Source of the DNA: Bdellovibrionales bacterium GWA2_49_15
Lineage (GTDB): Bacteria > Bdellovibrionota > Bacteriovoracia > Bacteriovoracales > Bacteriovoracaceae
Direction of reading: 5' to 3'
Assembly (NCBI GenBank): GCA_001769855.1
Contig: MEPP01000031.1
Span: 299,407 to 363,406, forward strand
Length of the DNA: 64,000 nucleotides
The first letter of the stretch is position 1. Every line of letters starts with the position of its first letter. The notes beneath the pieces are model-generated. The model saw only the letters and a list, made by a program, of their open reading frames with translations, searched no databases and was not told the DNA's origin. The translations under genes were made by a program, and so were the position numbers. This document shows positions 44,880 to 52,740 of this stretch, one piece after another.

Positions 44880-45276
44880 CTAAGATTCATTCTCTTTGCT
44901 GCCTTTCTTCAATCCAATTCGCTTTCGCCTTGGTGATAAATCTGCGATCCCTGAGCTAATTCGCCCTTCAATATCTTCCAGTCTTTCAAAAACTACTCGA
45001 AAAAGTTTAGTTGTCCCCTTTTCAAAATTAGTCAATTTTTCAGCCAATGATTCATCGGATGCTAAAAAATGGCGTATTTTCACAAAGACTCGCATGATAG
45101 TGATATTAACCTGGATGGCGCTATCGCTGTTTAAAACTGACGACAACATGGCAATCCCTTGCTCCGTAAACACATAAGGTACATACTTACGCCTCGCTGT
45201 AGCCGTACTAAAGGTCACAAATTGTGACCTTAATAAATCTCGCTCCTCTTTGGTTAATTGAAACATAAAGTCTTTT
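44880..45276 (-). pseudogene. ORF6N-domain protein, 3' part, interrupted by the RIT element
   Basis: The frame reads KDFMFQLTKEERDLLRSQF, then RRKYVPYVFTEQGIAMLSSVL and QVNITIMRVFVKIRHFL, which is the second half of an ORF6N domain, followed by a coiled C-terminal tail. ORF6N proteins are DNA-binding phage or accessory regulators of about 180-200 residues. The usual first half (Y-V-I-R-G, V-M-L-D-x-D-L-A) is missing here and is found at 48440-48613 on the same strand. The frame would continue correctly if the 3.2-kb element were removed. An ATG-like start at 45311 within the element end is probably not used. Confidence 0.85.
45262..45276 (+). repeat. left flanking direct repeat of the RIT element
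   Basis: AACATAAAGTCTTTT matches AACATAAAATCTTTT at 48453-48467 except at one base; the first eight bases are identical. The repeat codes (minus strand) for KDFM of the ORF6N protein, so it represents the target or crossover sequence. Confidence 0.75.
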
Positions 45277-45302
45277 ATGTGTAGCTGGAAATTATGTGTA
45301 GT
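45264..45302 (+). repeat. left terminal inverted repeat of the RIT element
   Basis: Begins CATAAAGTCTTTTATGTG and ends GGAAATTATGTGTAGT. It aligns with the reverse complement of 48406-48444 over 39 bases with about five mismatches; the block TTTATGTGTAGCTGG is identical in both. Confidence 0.85.
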
Positions 45303-45346
45303 TAACAGCAATTCTCACCTAGTTTTAGATATTTACCAACGCAACT

Positions 45347-45362
45347 GCTTCACATAATTTCC
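45347..45362 (-). repeat. left inner copy of the recombinase-site-like motif
   Basis: GCTTCACATAATTTCC is the reverse complement of GGAAATTATGTGAAGC. It faces the outer copy at 45288-45303 across 43 bases, making an inverted pair like the two arms of a recombinase core site. It also covers the space between the -35 and -10 regions of the trio's presumed promoter. Confidence 0.7.
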
Positions 45363-45364
45363 TC

Positions 45365-45370
45365 TATACT
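45365..45370 (+). promoter_or_regulatory. possible -10 box of the recombinase trio
   Basis: TATACT is close to the consensus TATAAT and lies 30 bases before the first recombinase ATG, which has a strong GGAGGTAG ribosome-binding site (45388-45395). No convincing -35 box is seen 16-18 bases upstream; that area holds the inner site motif. Confidence 0.4.
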
Positions 45371-45399
45371 CCCTCCAAAACCAACGGAGGTAGTAACCA

Positions 45400-46323
45400 A
45401 TGAAAAAAGTAAGATCGAGAAATGAACGGCACTCAAAACTGATAACAGAATACAGGGAGCATCAACTCGATGTTCAGTGTGTTTTAAATAGAACCATCGA
45501 TCAAAGACTCTTATTTGTCGTACCATTCTTGAAGAGCTTAGGTTCAAAAGCAACCATTTCTGAGATCGGACGAATTAAGCCTCATCATATTCATCAATAT
45601 GTGATGAAAACGGCACCCTCATTTTCGAGAAAGTATCAACAAGAATTCCTGTGCGCACTTCGGAGTTTTTTTAAATTTTTATTTTTTAAAGGTTACACCA
45701 CGGTACGGTTAACTGATGCCATCCCGAAACTTCCGACTTGGCAGTTGTCAACCATTCCGCGAGGAATCGAATGGGACTCTGTTCAGAAACTTCTAACAGC
45801 GCCCAATAGAAATACCCCGAATGGAAAAAGAAACTATGCTCTTCTTTTGCTGATGGCGACCTACGGGGTTCGATACCACCAAGCAGGCACCTTGAAGTTA
45901 AAAAATCTCCGTTGGCGAGAAGGAACAATTTACTTTCCACCATGTAAGGGCGGAAGGCCACTTAGCTTTCCGCTGTATCCCGATGTCGCTGAGGCATTAC
46001 TTGATTATATTAAAAATGGGCGGGGGCGAAACTTACTTGAGGAAGTTTTTTTAATGAAAAATGGCACGGAACCGCTTAAGCGCACGTCTCTATTTTCAAC
46101 CATGCAATGCTATTACAGAAGAATGGGAATCAAATCTAACGGGCAAGGATTTCACGCAATCAGACATGCTTTTGCTACAAAATTAATCAAGGAGAAAACG
46201 CCGATTAAAAACATCTCTGATATTTTGGGGCATACCTCGATTAAATCAACCTATGTTTATACCAAGGTTGATGTGTCACAGCTCAGAACCATCTGCCGTG
46301 AATGGATTGAGGTGAAGTCATGA
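45400..46323 (+). CDS. RIT tyrosine recombinase, first of three
   Basis: The 307-residue protein has an N-terminal SAM-like core-binding domain (about 30-110) and a tyrosine recombinase catalytic domain. Catalytic residues visible are Arg in ATYGVRYHQAGTLKL (about 155), HAIRHAFATKL (H-x-x-R, about 252-255), GHTSIKSTY (His about 277) and the nucleophile Tyr in TYVYTKVD (about 287). Together with two partners it should catalyse movement of the RIT element. The ATG follows GGAGGTAG. Its end overlaps the second gene by ATGA. Confidence 0.9.
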   Translation: MKKVRSRNERHSKLITEYREHQLDVQCVLNRTIDQRLLFVVPFLKSLGSKATISEIGRIKPHHIHQYVMKTAPSFSRKYQQEFLCALRSFFKFLFFKGYTTVRLTDAIPKLPTWQLSTIPRGIEWDSVQKLLTAPNRNTPNGKRNYALLLLMATYGVRYHQAGTLKLKNLRWREGTIYFPPCKGGRPLSFPLYPDVAEALLDYIKNGRGRNLLEEVFLMKNGTEPLKRTSLFSTMQCYYRRMGIKSNGQGFHAIRHAFATKLIKEKTPIKNISDILGHTSIKSTYVYTKVDVSQLRTICREWIEVKS

Positions 46324-47291
46324 GAAGAATCACTACTTTTAATGGACCCCTTAAGAATGACATCAAAGAATTCATAAAGTTTAGAAAATCACTTGGGTTT
46401 GCAATGCGAAACACCGCTTATATTTATGCAGAATTTGATCGTTTTTTAAAAAAGCATCACTCAAAAATGCGAGTGATCACTCGGCCAATGGTAGTAGATT
46501 ACATTGCGACCACTACGCACCTACACTCAACCAGTCGCGGTTACCGCGTCACACTGCTTCGTGGCCTTTGCCGATATCTTTACCAAAAAAACCCCAAACA
46601 TTATGTGCCCGAACCAAGGCTCTTAATTTGGGGTAAAAGGAAACTGACTCCACATGTCTATACAGATAGCGAGATTAGAAAAGTCCTGGGTGAAATTCAA
46701 AAATTTAAACGAAGAGGACCAACGGTTCCCGAAGTTTATTCTACTATTATTTCCGTGATCGCGGCTACAGGCCTTCGTGCAGGTGAGATCGAGCGGTTAA
46801 ATTTGGAAGATGTGGACCTTGAAAATGGTATTCTCACCATTCAACGTTCAAAGTTCTATAAATCAAGACTGGTTCCGATCTCAGAATCAACTCAGAAGGC
46901 TTTGAAATGTTATTTTACGTTAAGAATGAATGGTTTTCTTACCAACAATCCAAAATCAGCTTTCTTCGTTGGTTTTTGTGGAAAACGGATCACGGCAAAT
47001 GCGATGAGTAGAATATTGAGGAAGGTAATCCGGAAATTAAATCTTAAAACAAAACTTGGAACATGGCCGAGACTCCATGATTTAAGGCATACATTCGCCA
47101 CTCGAACGATGGAGGATATTTATGAAAATGGAAGTGACCCAAGCGCAAGCCTTCCTGTTCTTGCCACTTACATGGGCCATGTAAATTTAGATCATACCCA
47201 AACCTATCTTCACCCTTCTATCAGTCTTTTGGAAAAGGCCGGAGAAAAATTCAAAAACTATTCGAATTCATATCGTCAGGAGAATTTATGA
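46320..47291 (+). CDS. RIT tyrosine recombinase, second of three
   Basis: The 323-residue recombinase keeps ATGLRAGEIERLNLEDVD (Arg about 153), the beta-hairpin Lys in QRSKFYKSRLVPI, HDLRHTFATRT (about 254-257), MGHVNLDHTQTY (His about 286) and the nucleophile in TQTYLHP (about 296). It differs enough from its neighbours to be a separate subfamily, as known for RIT trios, where each position has its own lineage. ATGA overlaps at both ends ensure equal expression. Confidence 0.9.
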   Translation: MRRITTFNGPLKNDIKEFIKFRKSLGFAMRNTAYIYAEFDRFLKKHHSKMRVITRPMVVDYIATTTHLHSTSRGYRVTLLRGLCRYLYQKNPKHYVPEPRLLIWGKRKLTPHVYTDSEIRKVLGEIQKFKRRGPTVPEVYSTIISVIAATGLRAGEIERLNLEDVDLENGILTIQRSKFYKSRLVPISESTQKALKCYFTLRMNGFLTNNPKSAFFVGFCGKRITANAMSRILRKVIRKLNLKTKLGTWPRLHDLRHTFATRTMEDIYENGSDPSASLPVLATYMGHVNLDHTQTYLHPSISLLEKAGEKFKNYSNSYRQENL

Positions 47292-48304
47292 AAATCCAAA
47301 AATCACTTCCCCAATATATCGAAGCCTTTTTCCAAGAGCACCTTGCTGTTCATCGAGGTGTAAGCCCAAACACAATTAAATCCTACCGTGATGTGGTGAA
47401 ACTGTTTCTTCTTTTTATTGGTAAAACTCAGTCAAAGCCGATCACAAAAATAAAGCCAGAAGATCTAACAGTCGAAGTGGTCTTATTATTTTTGAAGGAT
47501 ATCGAGAGCACTCGGAAAAATGGGGCCATTACAAGAAATCATAGACTTGCGGCCCTTCGGGTGTTCTTCACTTACCTTGCCACCAGTGATGTGATGAACA
47601 TCGGGCAATACCAAAGAATTTTGCTCATTCCACAGAAGCGAACATCAAGGCCAATGATGGGTTACTTAGAAGTGGATGAAATAAACGCAATTTTTAAAGA
47701 AATTGATCGTTCTACATGGGGCGGACAGCGTGATTACGTTTTATTGAACCTACTTTACAACACAGGCGCTAGGGTTCAGGAGATTTGCGATCTCAAAGTA
47801 GAATCTATCAGACTTGATTCACCGCCATTGGCAACAATCTGTGGCAAAGGGAAAAAGACAAGACAGGTTCCGCTCTGGCCTGAAACCAAAAAACTTCTGA
47901 TAGATTATTTTCACGAAAATAATCTTATGGAAAACCCAGAAACATTTTTATTCCAGAATCAGAGAGGTAATCCAATTGGACGATTTGGAGTCCGCTACGT
48001 TATAGATAGGCGTGTTCGAAATGCTATTAAGATTTGCTCGAAACTTGCAAAGAAAACTGTAACGCCTCACACCTTCCGACATACAACAGCAATGCATCTC
48101 CTTCAGTCAGGAGTTGAATTGACTGTTATTCGTAGCTGGCTTGGCCATGTCGATATCGCAACAACCCACAGTTATGTTGAAATAGATATGGAGATGAAAA
48201 GAAGGGCACTTGAAAAATGCAACCCAGTGAAAGGTTCAAAAAATGGCCTGGGACCGCTCCTTAATAAGAACAAAGACATTATCGGGTGGCTTGAAACACT
48301 ATAG
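47288..48304 (+). CDS. RIT tyrosine recombinase, third of three
   Basis: The 338-residue recombinase has an N-terminal core-binding domain (YIEAFFQEHLAVHRGVSPNT, XerC/D-like) and the catalytic set NTGARVQEICDLKVE (Arg about 160), GKGKKTRQVPL (hairpin Lys), HTFRHTTAMHLL (about 261-264), GHVDIATTHSY (His about 286) and Tyr of HSYVEID (about 295). It is the most XerD-like of the three. Its stop at 48304 lies 44 bases before the right inner site. Confidence 0.9.
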   Translation: MKIQKSLPQYIEAFFQEHLAVHRGVSPNTIKSYRDVVKLFLLFIGKTQSKPITKIKPEDLTVEVVLLFLKDIESTRKNGAITRNHRLAALRVFFTYLATSDVMNIGQYQRILLIPQKRTSRPMMGYLEVDEINAIFKEIDRSTWGGQRDYVLLNLLYNTGARVQEICDLKVESIRLDSPPLATICGKGKKTRQVPLWPETKKLLIDYFHENNLMENPETFLFQNQRGNPIGRFGVRYVIDRRVRNAIKICSKLAKKTVTPHTFRHTTAMHLLQSGVELTVIRSWLGHVDIATTHSYVEIDMEMKRRALEKCNPVKGSKNGLGPLLNKNKDIIGWLETL

Positions 48305-48347
48305 CAGAAGACCAGGGAGGGAAAGAAAAACCACTCTGGCTTTCTTT

Positions 48348-48361
48348 GAATTATGTGAAGC
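48348..48361 (+). repeat. right inner copy of the recombinase-site-like motif
   Basis: GAATTATGTGAAGC repeats the motif of the other element ends. It is inverted relative to the outer copy at 48405-48420 at a spacing of 43 bases, nearly the same as on the left side. Confidence 0.7.
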
Positions 48362-48405
48362 GACTTCGCTGACAGTCATAGCAAAAATAGGTGAAAGTCA
48401 CTGCC

Positions 48406-48444
48406 ACTTCACATAATTCCCAGCTACACATAAACGATCTTATG
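48406..48444 (-). repeat. right terminal inverted repeat of the RIT element
   Basis: Read on the minus strand it starts CATAAGATCGTTTATGTG and ends GGGAATTATGTGAAGT, matching the left terminus except for a few bases. The outermost bases, with the adjoining target, make a palindrome of TTATGTTG and CAACATAA around TGCT. Confidence 0.85.
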
Positions 48445-48613
48445 TTGTGCTCAACATAAAATCTTTTGGGAATCTCGTTTGGTTTCTTTTTACTGCCTGA
48501 TTCAAAACTTTGACCTCAACCTCGTAGAGTTCGGCAAGATCACTGTCCAGCATGACTTTTTGTCCCCGAATGACATAGATGAATTTTTCAATTTTCGCTG
48601 CCGTTATTTCCAA
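48440..48613 (-). pseudogene. ORF6N-domain protein, 5' part, interrupted by the RIT element
   Basis: Reading from a TTG at 48613 with AGGAG seven bases upstream gives 57 residues: [38 protein letters not shown], then TRFPKDFM, after which the frame enters the element and stops. This is the first half of an ORF6N domain (Y-V-I-R-G-x-x-V-M-L-D-x-D-L-A-x-L-Y). Joined to the piece at 44880-45276 it restores an in-frame protein of about 185 residues, the usual ORF6N size. Confidence 0.85.
48453..48467 (+). repeat. right flanking direct repeat of the RIT element
   Basis: AACATAAAATCTTTT, the near-identical partner of 45262-45276. It probably retains the original target sequence, since it runs straight into the uninterrupted ORF6N 5' part. 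The 130 bases from 48614 to the next stop codon at 48744 show no gene. Confidence 0.75.
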
Positions 48614-48743
48614 TCTTACTCTCCTTATAGAAGCAGCAATGCAATTTATGCACGGGAAACCTCGTGATAAGCGGTGGAAATTATTGTCTTAACTCTTTGG
48701 ATTTAGAAAAGTAGCACATCAATTCCAAAATATTGTATTGAAC

Positions 48744-50156
48744 CTATTTCAAAATCTCTGATAGTTCTTTGGCAAAGACGCCGGAGAAAAATTCGAAAAA
48801 GGTCTGGCCTTCGAGGGATTTTCTCTCAAGCTCATCATTGAGATTGCCAATCTCGAGCTGAAGAATAGGAATCCCATGGCCATCCTTGGCCTCACTCGGT
48901 TTCAATTTTTCGGTCCTTGATTTGAGTCCTATGATTCCACCGTGTTTCTTTAAGAGAGACATTAAATTTTGAGCACGTTCCTCCGTTAATATCTCTCCTG
49001 GTAATCCGAAAATAATTCCTCCATCTGAATGACCCACACCGATTCTGATAAGCAGTTTTCCTCTTAATCCATCTTGGATCTTATCAAGAGGACTCGCAGA
49101 GGCCCTAAGAGTTTTTATTTTGTACTCAGTCATGAGTTCGTTTTGAAGCAAACTCAAAAATGACCAGGCCATGATAGCATTCTGTTCCACACCTCTTGGG
49201 CCTTGGAGAATAACCGTCGGAGTTTCCTCAAGATCAGAGTTAAGTCTATTGGCAAGTTCCCCCTCGATGCGAAAAAGGTTTTGCAGGGCAGTTTCCGCAA
49301 AGTAATTAAAGCGAATACTCCAATGATAAATCGGCATAGGTTCGGCGATTTGCTTATACCAACTCTTTCCAGTGAACATTTCAATATACTTCTGCGTCGG
49401 AGGAGTTCCATGGCGGGCAAAAATTTCTTTCCTTAAGCTAGTGAGGACTTCATCATCAAGATCATCAAGCTCATCAAAGCTTAGAAGGTGCGATTTTAGA
49501 GATTTAGGAAAATACTCCCAAGGTCCATCGTCTTTCTCCAGCATTTTTGTCAGACCCGTGGATAATTTATCCAAAGGATCTTTATCATCAAGAGTTTCGG
49601 CGCGGATAAAATCTGTCTGGACGGCACCTTCAATATGTAGCGTTTGATTTTTTTGACCAGAATGGATGTGGTACCAAGCTCCAAGGGCCAGTGCCACAAA
49701 AGAGACGAGCATGAGCGAGACAAATTTTAATTTTCGTTTGGGGCGTTCGGTTGGCAAGCTGGCCTTACCATCCAAGGCCTGAAGCAAATTCGCGACTCCG
49801 CTGTCCCAGTTATTTCCGTAAGCAGAAATCCACTGCGTATTGCATAGATAGTATTCCATGGGGCCCGTTGGAGTGATGTTCTCCAGCATTAAAACCGCGA
49901 TGGTGAGTTTCGCGTTAATGGCCCGATCGACTTCGCGCTGAACTTGAACAGAATTCTCAGCACTCTTGGTATACAAGAGAATAAGAGCGGTCGAGCCCTC
50001 AAGGGCATCAAGAATACACTGAGCATAGTTCTGGGTTGGAGGAATATTCCGAGGGGCGACCCAACATGTTTTCCCCTTACCTTCCAGGATCTCCACCAAC
50101 TGATTGGCCCACTTCGCATCCTGACTTGAGTGACTGATAAAAAACTTTTCTGACAT
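48744..50156 (-). CDS. TIR-domain membrane protein with YARHG and amidase-like regions
   Basis: The 470-residue protein begins with a TIR domain (residues 1-135: FFISHSSQDAKWANQLVEIL, CWVAPRNIPP, and SVQVQREVDRA, whose Glu corresponds to the NADase-type catalytic position). A transmembrane helix follows (about 144-163, FVSLMLVSFVALALGAWY). A YARHG domain comes next (about 225-270; SLRKEIFARHGTPPTQKY, GKSWYK), a motif usually found outside the membrane. The last 170 residues resemble a degenerate N-acetylmuramoyl-L-alanine amidase: ILQGPRG where DPGHGG is expected, and PILQLEIGNLNDELERKSL like the P-A-V-L-V-E-x-G-F-x-S-N motif. TIR domains serve in immune signalling or NAD cleavage. No clear ribosome-binding site. 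Confidence 0.8.
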   Translation of the reverse strand: MSEKFFISHSSQDAKWANQLVEILEGKGKTCWVAPRNIPPTQNYAQCILDALEGSTALILLYTKSAENSVQVQREVDRAINAKLTIAVLMLENITPTGPMEYYLCNTQWISAYGNNWDSGVANLLQALDGKASLPTERPKRKLKFVSLMLVSFVALALGAWYHIHSGQKNQTLHIEGAVQTDFIRAETLDDKDPLDKLSTGLTKMLEKDDGPWEYFPKSLKSHLLSFDELDDLDDEVLTSLRKEIFARHGTPPTQKYIEMFTGKSWYKQIAEPMPIYHWSIRFNYFAETALQNLFRIEGELANRLNSDLEETPTVILQGPRGVEQNAIMAWSFLSLLQNELMTEYKIKTLRASASPLDKIQDGLRGKLLIRIGVGHSDGGIIFGLPGEILTEERAQNLMSLLKKHGGIIGLKSRTEKLKPSEAKDGHGIPILQLEIGNLNDELERKSLEGQTFFEFFSGVFAKELSEILK

Positions 50157-50203: not shown

Positions 50204-50977
50204 TTATCTCCCGAGCTCCACACTAATCTTGAAAATGGCCTTTTGGGCCTTATCGCGAACCAGATGATTTTTACTGGCAAGGGCCTCGTTCAGTGCCTGA
50301 AGGCCCTCATTCGTGGGGAAATTGGCGATGGCCATAATCGCCGCCACCTGAACATCACCTTGCTCATGTTTAACCGCGTTTAAGATGATGGGGTAGGCCC
50401 TCTTATCTTTGATTTTTCCCAATGTCACGATCGCCAGATAGCGCAAATTATCGTCATTATGGTCCGCAAGTTCCATCATTTTCCTTACGGTTGTTTCCTG
50501 ATCCATATCGTAGAGGAGTAAGGCCGTGACCTCACTTACGCTCGTATCATTACTCAGCATGAAATCAAAGAGGGCCTGATACACTTCCACATCCTTGAAT
50601 TTGGCGAGACTTTTAACCACGTCAAACTTGGAATGATTTGTTCCGTTGACTAGTTCATTTAAAAGCAGTTGTCGATTTTTGAGAATTTCAGGATCAGCTG
50701 CGGGATCTGCGATAATTGGAGCCGAGGAAGAAGGCGAATCGACCCTAAGATAGCTGCCATAGAGTTCTTCATTTCTCACAGCATCTCGTAAAAGAATTGT
50801 CGGATCATGATTGGAAACATCTATGGAGTCACGGCTTACGGTTATACTGTCGGATGAAATGACTTGCGCGGCCTTTTCTTTTTTTTGAGCTGGATAGGAC
50901 TCCGGGTCCCCGCTGAGAAATTTGACCGCAATTAGGACAAACAGGACAATGAAAATCAGAATTAACAACTTACTCAT
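50204..50977 (-). CDS. membrane-anchored HEAT-repeat protein
   Basis: An N-terminal helix (MSKLLILIFIVLFVLIAVKFLSG) anchors a 257-residue protein in the membrane. After a low-complexity linker, residues about 110-255 are HEAT/PBS-lyase-like repeats, for example NLRYLAIVTLGKIKDKRAYPIIL and DVQVAAIMAIANFPTNEGLQALNEAL. Such repeats bind proteins. It is followed downstream by the TIR gene (47-base gap) on the same strand, and preceded by a J-domain gene 12 bases away, so they may be co-expressed. Confidence 0.8.
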   Translation of the reverse strand: MSKLLILIFIVLFVLIAVKFLSGDPESYPAQKKEKAAQVISSDSITVSRDSIDVSNHDPTILLRDAVRNEELYGSYLRVDSPSSSAPIIADPAADPEILKNRQLLLNELVNGTNHSKFDVVKSLAKFKDVEVYQALFDFMLSNDTSVSEVTALLLYDMDQETTVRKMMELADHNDDNLRYLAIVTLGKIKDKRAYPIILNAVKHEQGDVQVAAIMAIANFPTNEGLQALNEALASKNHLVRDKAQKAIFKISVELGR

Positions 50978-51887: not shown

Positions 51888-52232
51888 TTACTTTGCATAT
51901 TTTATTACTTGCGCCGAAATAAATTTCATCACCTTGAACACATTTTCCGAAGATGTTTTATGCTCTCCCTTAATGAAGTTATAGATAGTCCTTTGCGGTA
52001 TCTTGGCCTCCTTCGAGACCTTGGTTTTTCCGACATGATCTAAATAAAGCGAAACAATTTCAAAAAAAGTATCATGCTCTCCCGCGATGAAATGTTCTAC
52101 GAGTCTTTTTTTCACTTCTTTAGGATTTGTGAAATCAATTGATGATTCATATTCATCAAATTCTGACAAATCAATCTCAGAGAACTTTGGAATTTTTAAA
52201 TCGGAAATTTTTTTTGTTTTATGCTTGTCCAT
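51888..52232 (-). CDS. antitoxin of a HigBA/RelE-like module
   Basis: The 114-residue protein has a flexible charged N-terminus and a helix-turn-helix from about residue 70 (SLYLDHVGKTKVSKEAKIPQ, then RTIYNFIKGEHKTSSENVFK), matching the addiction-module antitoxin family with F-x-x-P-K-E-V-x-x-x-L at its start. It begins three bases after the toxin stop, the reversed toxin-first order of higBA. It should neutralise the toxin and repress the operon through the palindromes upstream. Confidence 0.8.
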   Translation of the reverse strand: MDKHKTKKISDLKIPKFSEIDLSEFDEYESSIDFTNPKEVKKRLVEHFIAGEHDTFFEIVSLYLDHVGKTKVSKEAKIPQRTIYNFIKGEHKTSSENVFKVMKFISAQVIKYAK

Positions 52233-52235
52233 AAT

Positions 52236-52589
52236 TCACTTCTCCTCAATTTTTTTCTTCTTACCCAGGATCGACCTTACGGCCTTTAGAATTACGTTTT
52301 TAGCTGACCCAATATTTTCTTTCTGAGAATTTTTATTTCCACCCTGAAGCAAGAGCAGGAAGTTTCCATCTTTGTCCTGCAAAAGGCTAAAATACACTCT
52401 TAAACCGCTATCCCATTTAAACTCGTAAAGTGATGTCTCTTGGTCAAGCAACTTGTGCTTTATCAGTATTCCGTCCCGTCGTGCTATATCAATTCTGGCA
52501 TCGATAATTCTCTGAGTTTTGATATCCAGGTTCCGAAACCATGCCCTATAAGGCCTGCTTCGATAGACTCTCAATCGTATCCAGGACAT
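52236..52589 (-). CDS. RelE/HigB-like toxin
   Basis: The ATG at 52589 is preceded by GAGGCGAGA; the longer frame starts in the operator region. The 117-residue product fits the RelE-type killer-protein family: AWFRNLDIKTQRIIDARID early, LYEFKWDSGLRVYFSLLQ in the middle, and the hallmark FLLLLQGGNKNSQKENIGSA. RelE/HigB toxins cut mRNA at the ribosome. A lysine-rich tail follows the core. It is first in the operon, with the antitoxin gene three bases downstream. Confidence 0.82.
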   Translation of the reverse strand: MSWIRLRVYRSRPYRAWFRNLDIKTQRIIDARIDIARRDGILIKHKLLDQETSLYEFKWDSGLRVYFSLLQDKDGNFLLLLQGGNKNSQKENIGSAKNVILKAVRSILGKKKKIEEK

Positions 52590-52604
52590 TCTCGCCTCAC
52601 ATAT

Positions 52605-52628
52605 AATTATGCCATATTTGGCATAATT
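52605..52628. promoter_or_regulatory. operator palindrome 1 of the toxin-antitoxin operon
   Basis: Arms AATTATGCCA and TGGCATAATT surround TATT, a perfect 10-bp inverted repeat 15 bases upstream of the toxin ATG. The core GCCATATTTGGC recurs in palindrome 2. It is the likely binding site of the HTH antitoxin. Confidence 0.65.
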
Positions 52629-52643
52629 TTTCACTCTATTTAT

Positions 52644-52661
52644 TTTGCCATATTTGGCAAA
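52644..52661. promoter_or_regulatory. operator palindrome 2 of the toxin-antitoxin operon
   Basis: Arms TTTGCCA and TGGCAAA around the same TATT centre. Its centre lies 36 bases from the centre of palindrome 1, so two antitoxin dimers could bind. Confidence 0.6.
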
Positions 52662-52740
52662 GCTCTCCGGGGTTATAGTTAGCAAGTTTTTGTCTGGATG
52701 GGAGAGGCTATCGGGCTGAAATTACACATCAAGCTGAAAC

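Follow-up and report, generated by a model that had tools for sequence, protein, structure and literature searches.

Most characterised bacterial TIR systems detect threats within the cell. The bacterial TIR NADase immune proteins Thoeris ThsB, TIR-SAVED, SPARTA TIR-APAZ and SpbK have in common with the protein described here the TIR fold and a Glu at the catalytic position. A receptor-like layout is known from proteins that carry YARHG, an extracellular domain and putative peptidoglycan binder for which 14 architectures have been listed with partners including zinc ribbons, kinases and peptidases; the word TIR is absent from that description (Coggill and Bateman 2012, PMC3355149). Here we analyse a gene in which the two domains are joined, located in a stretch of 64,000 nucleotides from Bdellovibrionales bacterium GWA2_49_15 (contig MEPP01000031.1, positions 299,407 to 363,406), hereafter the window. 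The open frame at 48744..50156 on the minus strand is single and intact, starts with ATG and runs for 470 codons, encoding a 470-residue protein with a TIR domain, a membrane helix, a YARHG domain and a probable pseudo-enzyme resembling Amidase_3. This domain order, together with the predicted topology, suggests that the protein may follow the outside-in pattern of a TIR receptor, much as Toll receptors do. The layout given in the original prediction (N-terminal TIR, one membrane helix, an outside YARHG and a C-terminal region) is confirmed by Pfam and hydropathy, the topology being predicted, and the motifs quoted there are present: QGPRG at 318-322, LQLEIGN at 432-438 and the Glu of the TIR domain.

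The TIR_2 domain (PF13676; residues 5-125, 49782..50144, minus strand), predicted to be cytoplasmic, scores 61.8 bits against a curated cut-off of 28 (E 1.1e-16) and covers the profile from end to end (1-122 of 122). The AlphaFold2 model of the protein has a pLDDT of about 75-91 in this region, for which the best Foldseek matches are SPARTA TIR-APAZ and the SARM1 TIR (E 5e-6 to 3e-5); the full-length model gave only TIR-containing structures among the matches listed, and the TIRs of TLR1/2 are among the PDB sequence matches. Glu75 (49932..49934, minus strand), within SVQVQREVDRA, falls where TIR NADases have their catalytic Glu, in agreement with the HMMER alignment to the TLR1 TIR, and we take it to be equivalent to E642 of SARM1 (WVHKE). 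The residue is invariant in 10 of 10 aligned relatives, in which the flanking D-R-A and a C-W-x-A-P-R motif are conserved as well. As Glu75 lies at the catalytic position and is invariant, the catalytic-type residue is present, as had been predicted; with a fold near that of NADase TIRs, the domain may itself be an NADase.

Only one segment of the protein is hydrophobic (residues 143-161, mean hydropathy 1.98), and the AlphaFold2 model places a helix at 145-165, so that the single membrane helix is assigned to residues ~143-165 (49662..49730, minus strand). Five Lys or Arg residues are found in the 15 residues before the segment and one after it, so an N-in/C-out orientation is predicted by the positive-inside rule, with the TIR domain inside and the remainder outside. 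The aligned relatives each have a single N-in membrane helix by hydropathy scan, except that in L020 the scan chose a segment of the TIR domain; the helix of this protein is visible by eye in the sequence. Behind the helix, and thus outside in the predicted topology, is the YARHG domain (PF13308; residues 220-272, 49341..49499, minus strand) with the motif FARHG at 246-250. It scores 24.4 bits by hmmscan (E 2.8e-5) and 27.3 bits in a search of the genome, for a cut-off of 27, and we regard this match as weak but real. The genome contains only one other YARHG domain, with 45.8-49.1 bits. It belongs to a paralogue on another contig (L008:1498-2961), a second protein of the same TIR-membrane helix-YARHG-C-terminus order in which the YARHG match is the stronger of the two (49 bits).

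Amidase_3 enzymes act on a cell-wall substrate. The C-terminal region of the window protein (residues 310-470, 48747..49229, minus strand) resembles them through the profile-profile match of its family and the secondary structure of its model. Taken alone it is without a Pfam match at E up to 10, does not match Amidase_3 (PF01520) significantly (P 0.07, against a reference alignment of active-type amidases of the same phylum), and retrieves only itself from 129 family genomes. The match emerges from the relatives, as L013 alone aligns over the first half (P 6e-4) and L020 alone over the last third (P 1.4e-3), each above all 60 shuffles, and L015 is aligned by HMMER in the same register. A joint profile of these three gives P 2.2e-6 (score 45.2), colinear over amidase residues 58-250, where column shuffles reach at most 18, 44 decoy ORFs at most 21.3 and the reversed amidase profile 15.9; the three were picked after their single-sequence matches, which inflates this P, but those matches are nonetheless colinear and independent. 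Adding the window protein and its paralogue lowers the score to about 33, still above the decoys (at most 18), and the profile of these two proteins by themselves scores 22.7, barely over decoys of up to 22.4 (P about 0.01), in the correct register, with IPILQLEIGN against RPSVLLEAGF. An alignment of all members gave no signal against Amidase_3 because the distant members blur the profile. L014, L016, L022 and L023 gave none individually, and no member was significant in HMMER with a purpose-built Amidase_3 model (best E 0.04, for L020).

The original prediction had called this end of the protein degenerate and amidase-like, which profile-profile comparison bears out for the family but Pfam, HMMER and Foldseek do not for the window protein alone. 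Modelling of the C-terminus, proposed there for residues 290-470, likewise cut both ways: the predicted order of strands and helices fits Amidase_3, but the pLDDT is ~60 in the full model and 46 for the region alone (from a four-row alignment), and Foldseek with the latter gave matches that all have E above 0.2, with no amidase among them. Were the likeness convergent or due to chance, and the C-terminus an unrelated alpha/beta domain, the lack of a Pfam or Foldseek match for the window domain and the silence of four relatives would be expected. We think this unlikely, given that three relatives align independently in one register, that their joint profile stands far above shuffles, decoys and the reversed profile, and that the order of secondary structure elements agrees. 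Amidase_3 ancestry is, in our judgement, likely for the family and, through membership of that family, only slightly less so for the C-terminus of the window protein. In this protein GHGG has become GPRG (318-322) and SIHxN has become RIGVG (370-374), so that both zinc histidines are absent; the late Glu435 (LQLEIGN) is kept, as it is in L013 and L020, and is Asp in the paralogue. Since the histidines of both motifs are missing, hydrolase activity is very unlikely and the domain is probably a pseudo-amidase.

A search for the same domain order, which had also been suggested, was run with the protein and then with a profile in 369 genomes of the phylum, and the architecture of TIR, membrane helix and C-terminus was found at 11 loci, all in one bacterial family; the named records among them are mostly metagenome-assembled genomes of Bacteriovoracaceae or Bdellovibrionales. 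Three loci are from the window's genus (the window protein, its paralogue and L012 of a same-genus genome) and all have a recognisable YARHG, a domain that, as recognised by Pfam, is joined to TIR in no further genome of the 369. The other eight (L011, L013-L016, L020, L022 and L023), one to a genome and spread over five other genera, gave no Pfam YARHG call in the members scanned and retain at its place a short core, L..lr..I.xR.G. Ile245 and Gly250 (window numbering) are invariant in both alignments of relatives, and Leu238 in one.

Directly upstream of the TIR gene in all eight relatives outside the window's genus is a TPR-S/cyclase gene, a frame of 640-757 codons with a TPR-S domain. Partner proteins that were read directly end in a region resembling class III cyclases, which contains the metal-binding Asp motifs FADTVNYS and WGDALF. 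Pfam scans of three of them placed the cyclase over the cut-off in L013 and found RyR strongly in L013 and partially in L020; none of the three had a PADLOC match. The locus L013:6062-9554, where the TPR-S/cyclase protein is followed by the TIR-membrane helix-pseudo-amidase protein, exemplifies an operon-like form that would make a two-gene unit of the pair, one that PADLOC models match by its TIR domain alone. Some TIRs signal by scaffolding, and a partner gene that adjoins in eight of eight cases would suit a TIR domain that is a scaffold and not an enzyme, the receptor recruiting a cytoplasmic partner (TPR-S/cyclase in the relatives) through TIR contacts. Two observations make this quite improbable to us, namely that Glu75 is invariant in all relatives and that the protein is kept in the window's genus without the partner. 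Indeed, no TPR-S protein was found in three genomes of that genus. The three copies there have differing neighbours, none of them a known defence gene and none seen to be common to all, and as the copies lack shared neighbours the protein is probably self-contained in this genus. A tree built on the TIR domains pairs the window protein with L012 (89/92) and leaves the position of the paralogue unplaced. The gene upstream of the paralogue encodes a 740-residue protein of an unknown family with a signal-like segment. Searching plasmids yielded nothing but three short TIR matches from Vibrio.

Downstream of the TIR gene is a RIT element (45262-48446) with three tyrosine recombinases at 45400-48304, flanked by 41-nt inverted repeats (88%) at 45262-45302 and 48406-48446. 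We measure 298 bases between the stop codon of the TIR gene and the end of the right repeat (48446), in keeping with the 300 first estimated. The element is inserted in an ORF6N-domain gene, the halves of which lie at ~48447-48658 and 44883-45311. This proximity, and an adjacent gene for a membrane-anchored HEAT-repeat protein (50204-50977, minus strand) that is without a match in eight other family genomes checked, could be taken to mean that the TIR gene is recent RIT cargo with no settled role. Such an origin is highly improbable and was rejected, as the element is bounded by its own terminal repeats, within the ORF6N gene that it splits, and leaves the TIR gene outside; the suggested association of the two is not supported. 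Moreover, the GC3 of the TIR gene (0.45) resembles that of its HEAT and DnaJ neighbours (0.49 and 0.45) and exceeds that of the recombinases (0.36-0.41), and the paralogue is located elsewhere in the genome. Upstream of the TIR gene, the HEAT gene is accompanied by genes for a DnaJ-like protein and an HTH/Gp49-like pair, and by a small frame predicted to contain a membrane segment. The HTH/Gp49-like pair (HigB/RelE-type; 51888-52685, minus strand) is likely a toxin-antitoxin module, with weak Pfam scores.

Our leading interpretation, held tentatively and at somewhat less than even confidence, is that this single gene encodes a transmembrane TIR receptor and effector, in which a wall-binding periplasmic half drives NAD+ cleavage or messenger production by the TIR domain. 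The YARHG and zinc-less Amidase_3-like domains would together act as the sensor by binding peptidoglycan, its fragments or a protein acting on peptidoglycan. Damage to or a breach of the wall (phage entry or lysis, predation, T6SS attack) would change the oligomeric state, and the clustered cytoplasmic TIR domains would then cleave NAD+, resulting in its depletion or in an ADP-ribose-type signal. The TPR-S/cyclase protein encoded directly upstream in other genera would be a plausible reader or amplifier of this signal, one that the window's genus may have lost or may never have had. We infer the ligand, trigger, NADase activity and defence role of the window protein; a role against phage or predators is what the presence of TIR and TPR-S would lead one to expect. 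The periplasmic part might instead sense a cue other than the wall, such as a secreted protein, an envelope-stress factor or a phage protein, with the YARHG/Amidase_3-like ancestry providing a scaffold only and the outside-in TIR logic unchanged. The C-terminus diverges rapidly, the window protein and its relatives being 10-26% identical there; this, the lost zinc ligands and the varying outside domains of related TIR-membrane proteins (DUF5050, DUF4384) would suit a sensor that was exchanged under pressure to diversify; this reading is nevertheless somewhat unlikely, as YARHG, on the peptidoglycan-binder hypothesis (PMC3355149), and Amidase_3 both point to the wall.

Sensing of the wall, if correct, would place detection by a TIR protein at the envelope, as is the case for the Toll receptors and the peptidoglycan receptors of animals, and would make envelope-triggered immunity testable in bacteria. 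A dead amidase acting as receptor would likewise parallel the animal PGRPs, which are amidase relatives turned sensors. More broadly, the loci could represent an outside-in immune receptor family not described before, in which a periplasmic pseudo-amidase that reads peptidoglycan, together with YARHG, drives a cytoplasmic TIR that makes an ADP-ribose-type messenger for a TPR-S/(RyR)/cyclase reader in most relatives, the window form being self-contained and without a reader; as a whole we consider this scheme rather unlikely.

Beyond the TIR domain, the window protein matches no known defence system, and its PADLOC and NCBIfam matches are weak and run through the TIR alone. Membership of Thoeris fails, with no ThsA (SIR2/Macro/TM) next door and HEAT, DnaJ-like and RIT neighbours in its place, as does that of a CBASS or Pycsar TIR effector, with no cyclic-nucleotide binding domain and no adjacent cyclase in the window; a cyclase-type partner gene is found in the relatives only. 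Unlike the bacterial TIR NADase immune proteins, it is without cyclic-nucleotide, APAZ or SLOG parts and has in their place a membrane helix followed by a sensor-like half on the outside. Compared with AmiC/LytC-type Amidase_3 amidases, to which the family profile of its kin is colinear over most of the domain, the window protein lacks the zinc histidines, is not secreted and is tethered to a TIR. TPR-S and RyR domains reportedly belong to nucleotide-signalling conflict systems (Aravind group), and a TPR-S/cyclase gene immediately precedes that of each relative in the five other genera; the window's genus differs in that TPR-S is missing from its three genomes.

YARHG receptor-like proteins (zinc ribbon-TM-YARHG and kinase-TM-YARHG; PMC3355149) are built like the window protein, in that one membrane helix links an outside YARHG to a cytoplasmic domain, and differ in that this domain is here a TIR. 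A sample of 394 genomes, from the order of an Oscillospiraceae relative, supplied 30 YARHG loci for reading, and a TIR was absent from every one. Proteins with an N-terminal TIR, a membrane helix and other outside domains were found with DUF5050 (Oscillospiraceae) and DUF4384 (a delta-proteobacterium). The design had been thought new, which stands for the joining of TIR to YARHG, seen in the searched genomes only within this genus, but not for proteins that have an N-terminal TIR, span the membrane and carry a different outside domain, which occur in several phyla. Animal Toll-like receptors similarly combine an outside sensor, one membrane helix and a cytoplasmic TIR; the order is reversed in the window protein, where the TIR is N-terminal, and there is no LRR, so that the likeness is one of logic only. 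The protein is most closely filed with the bacterial TIR signalling and immune proteins, as a putative outside-in receptor variant.
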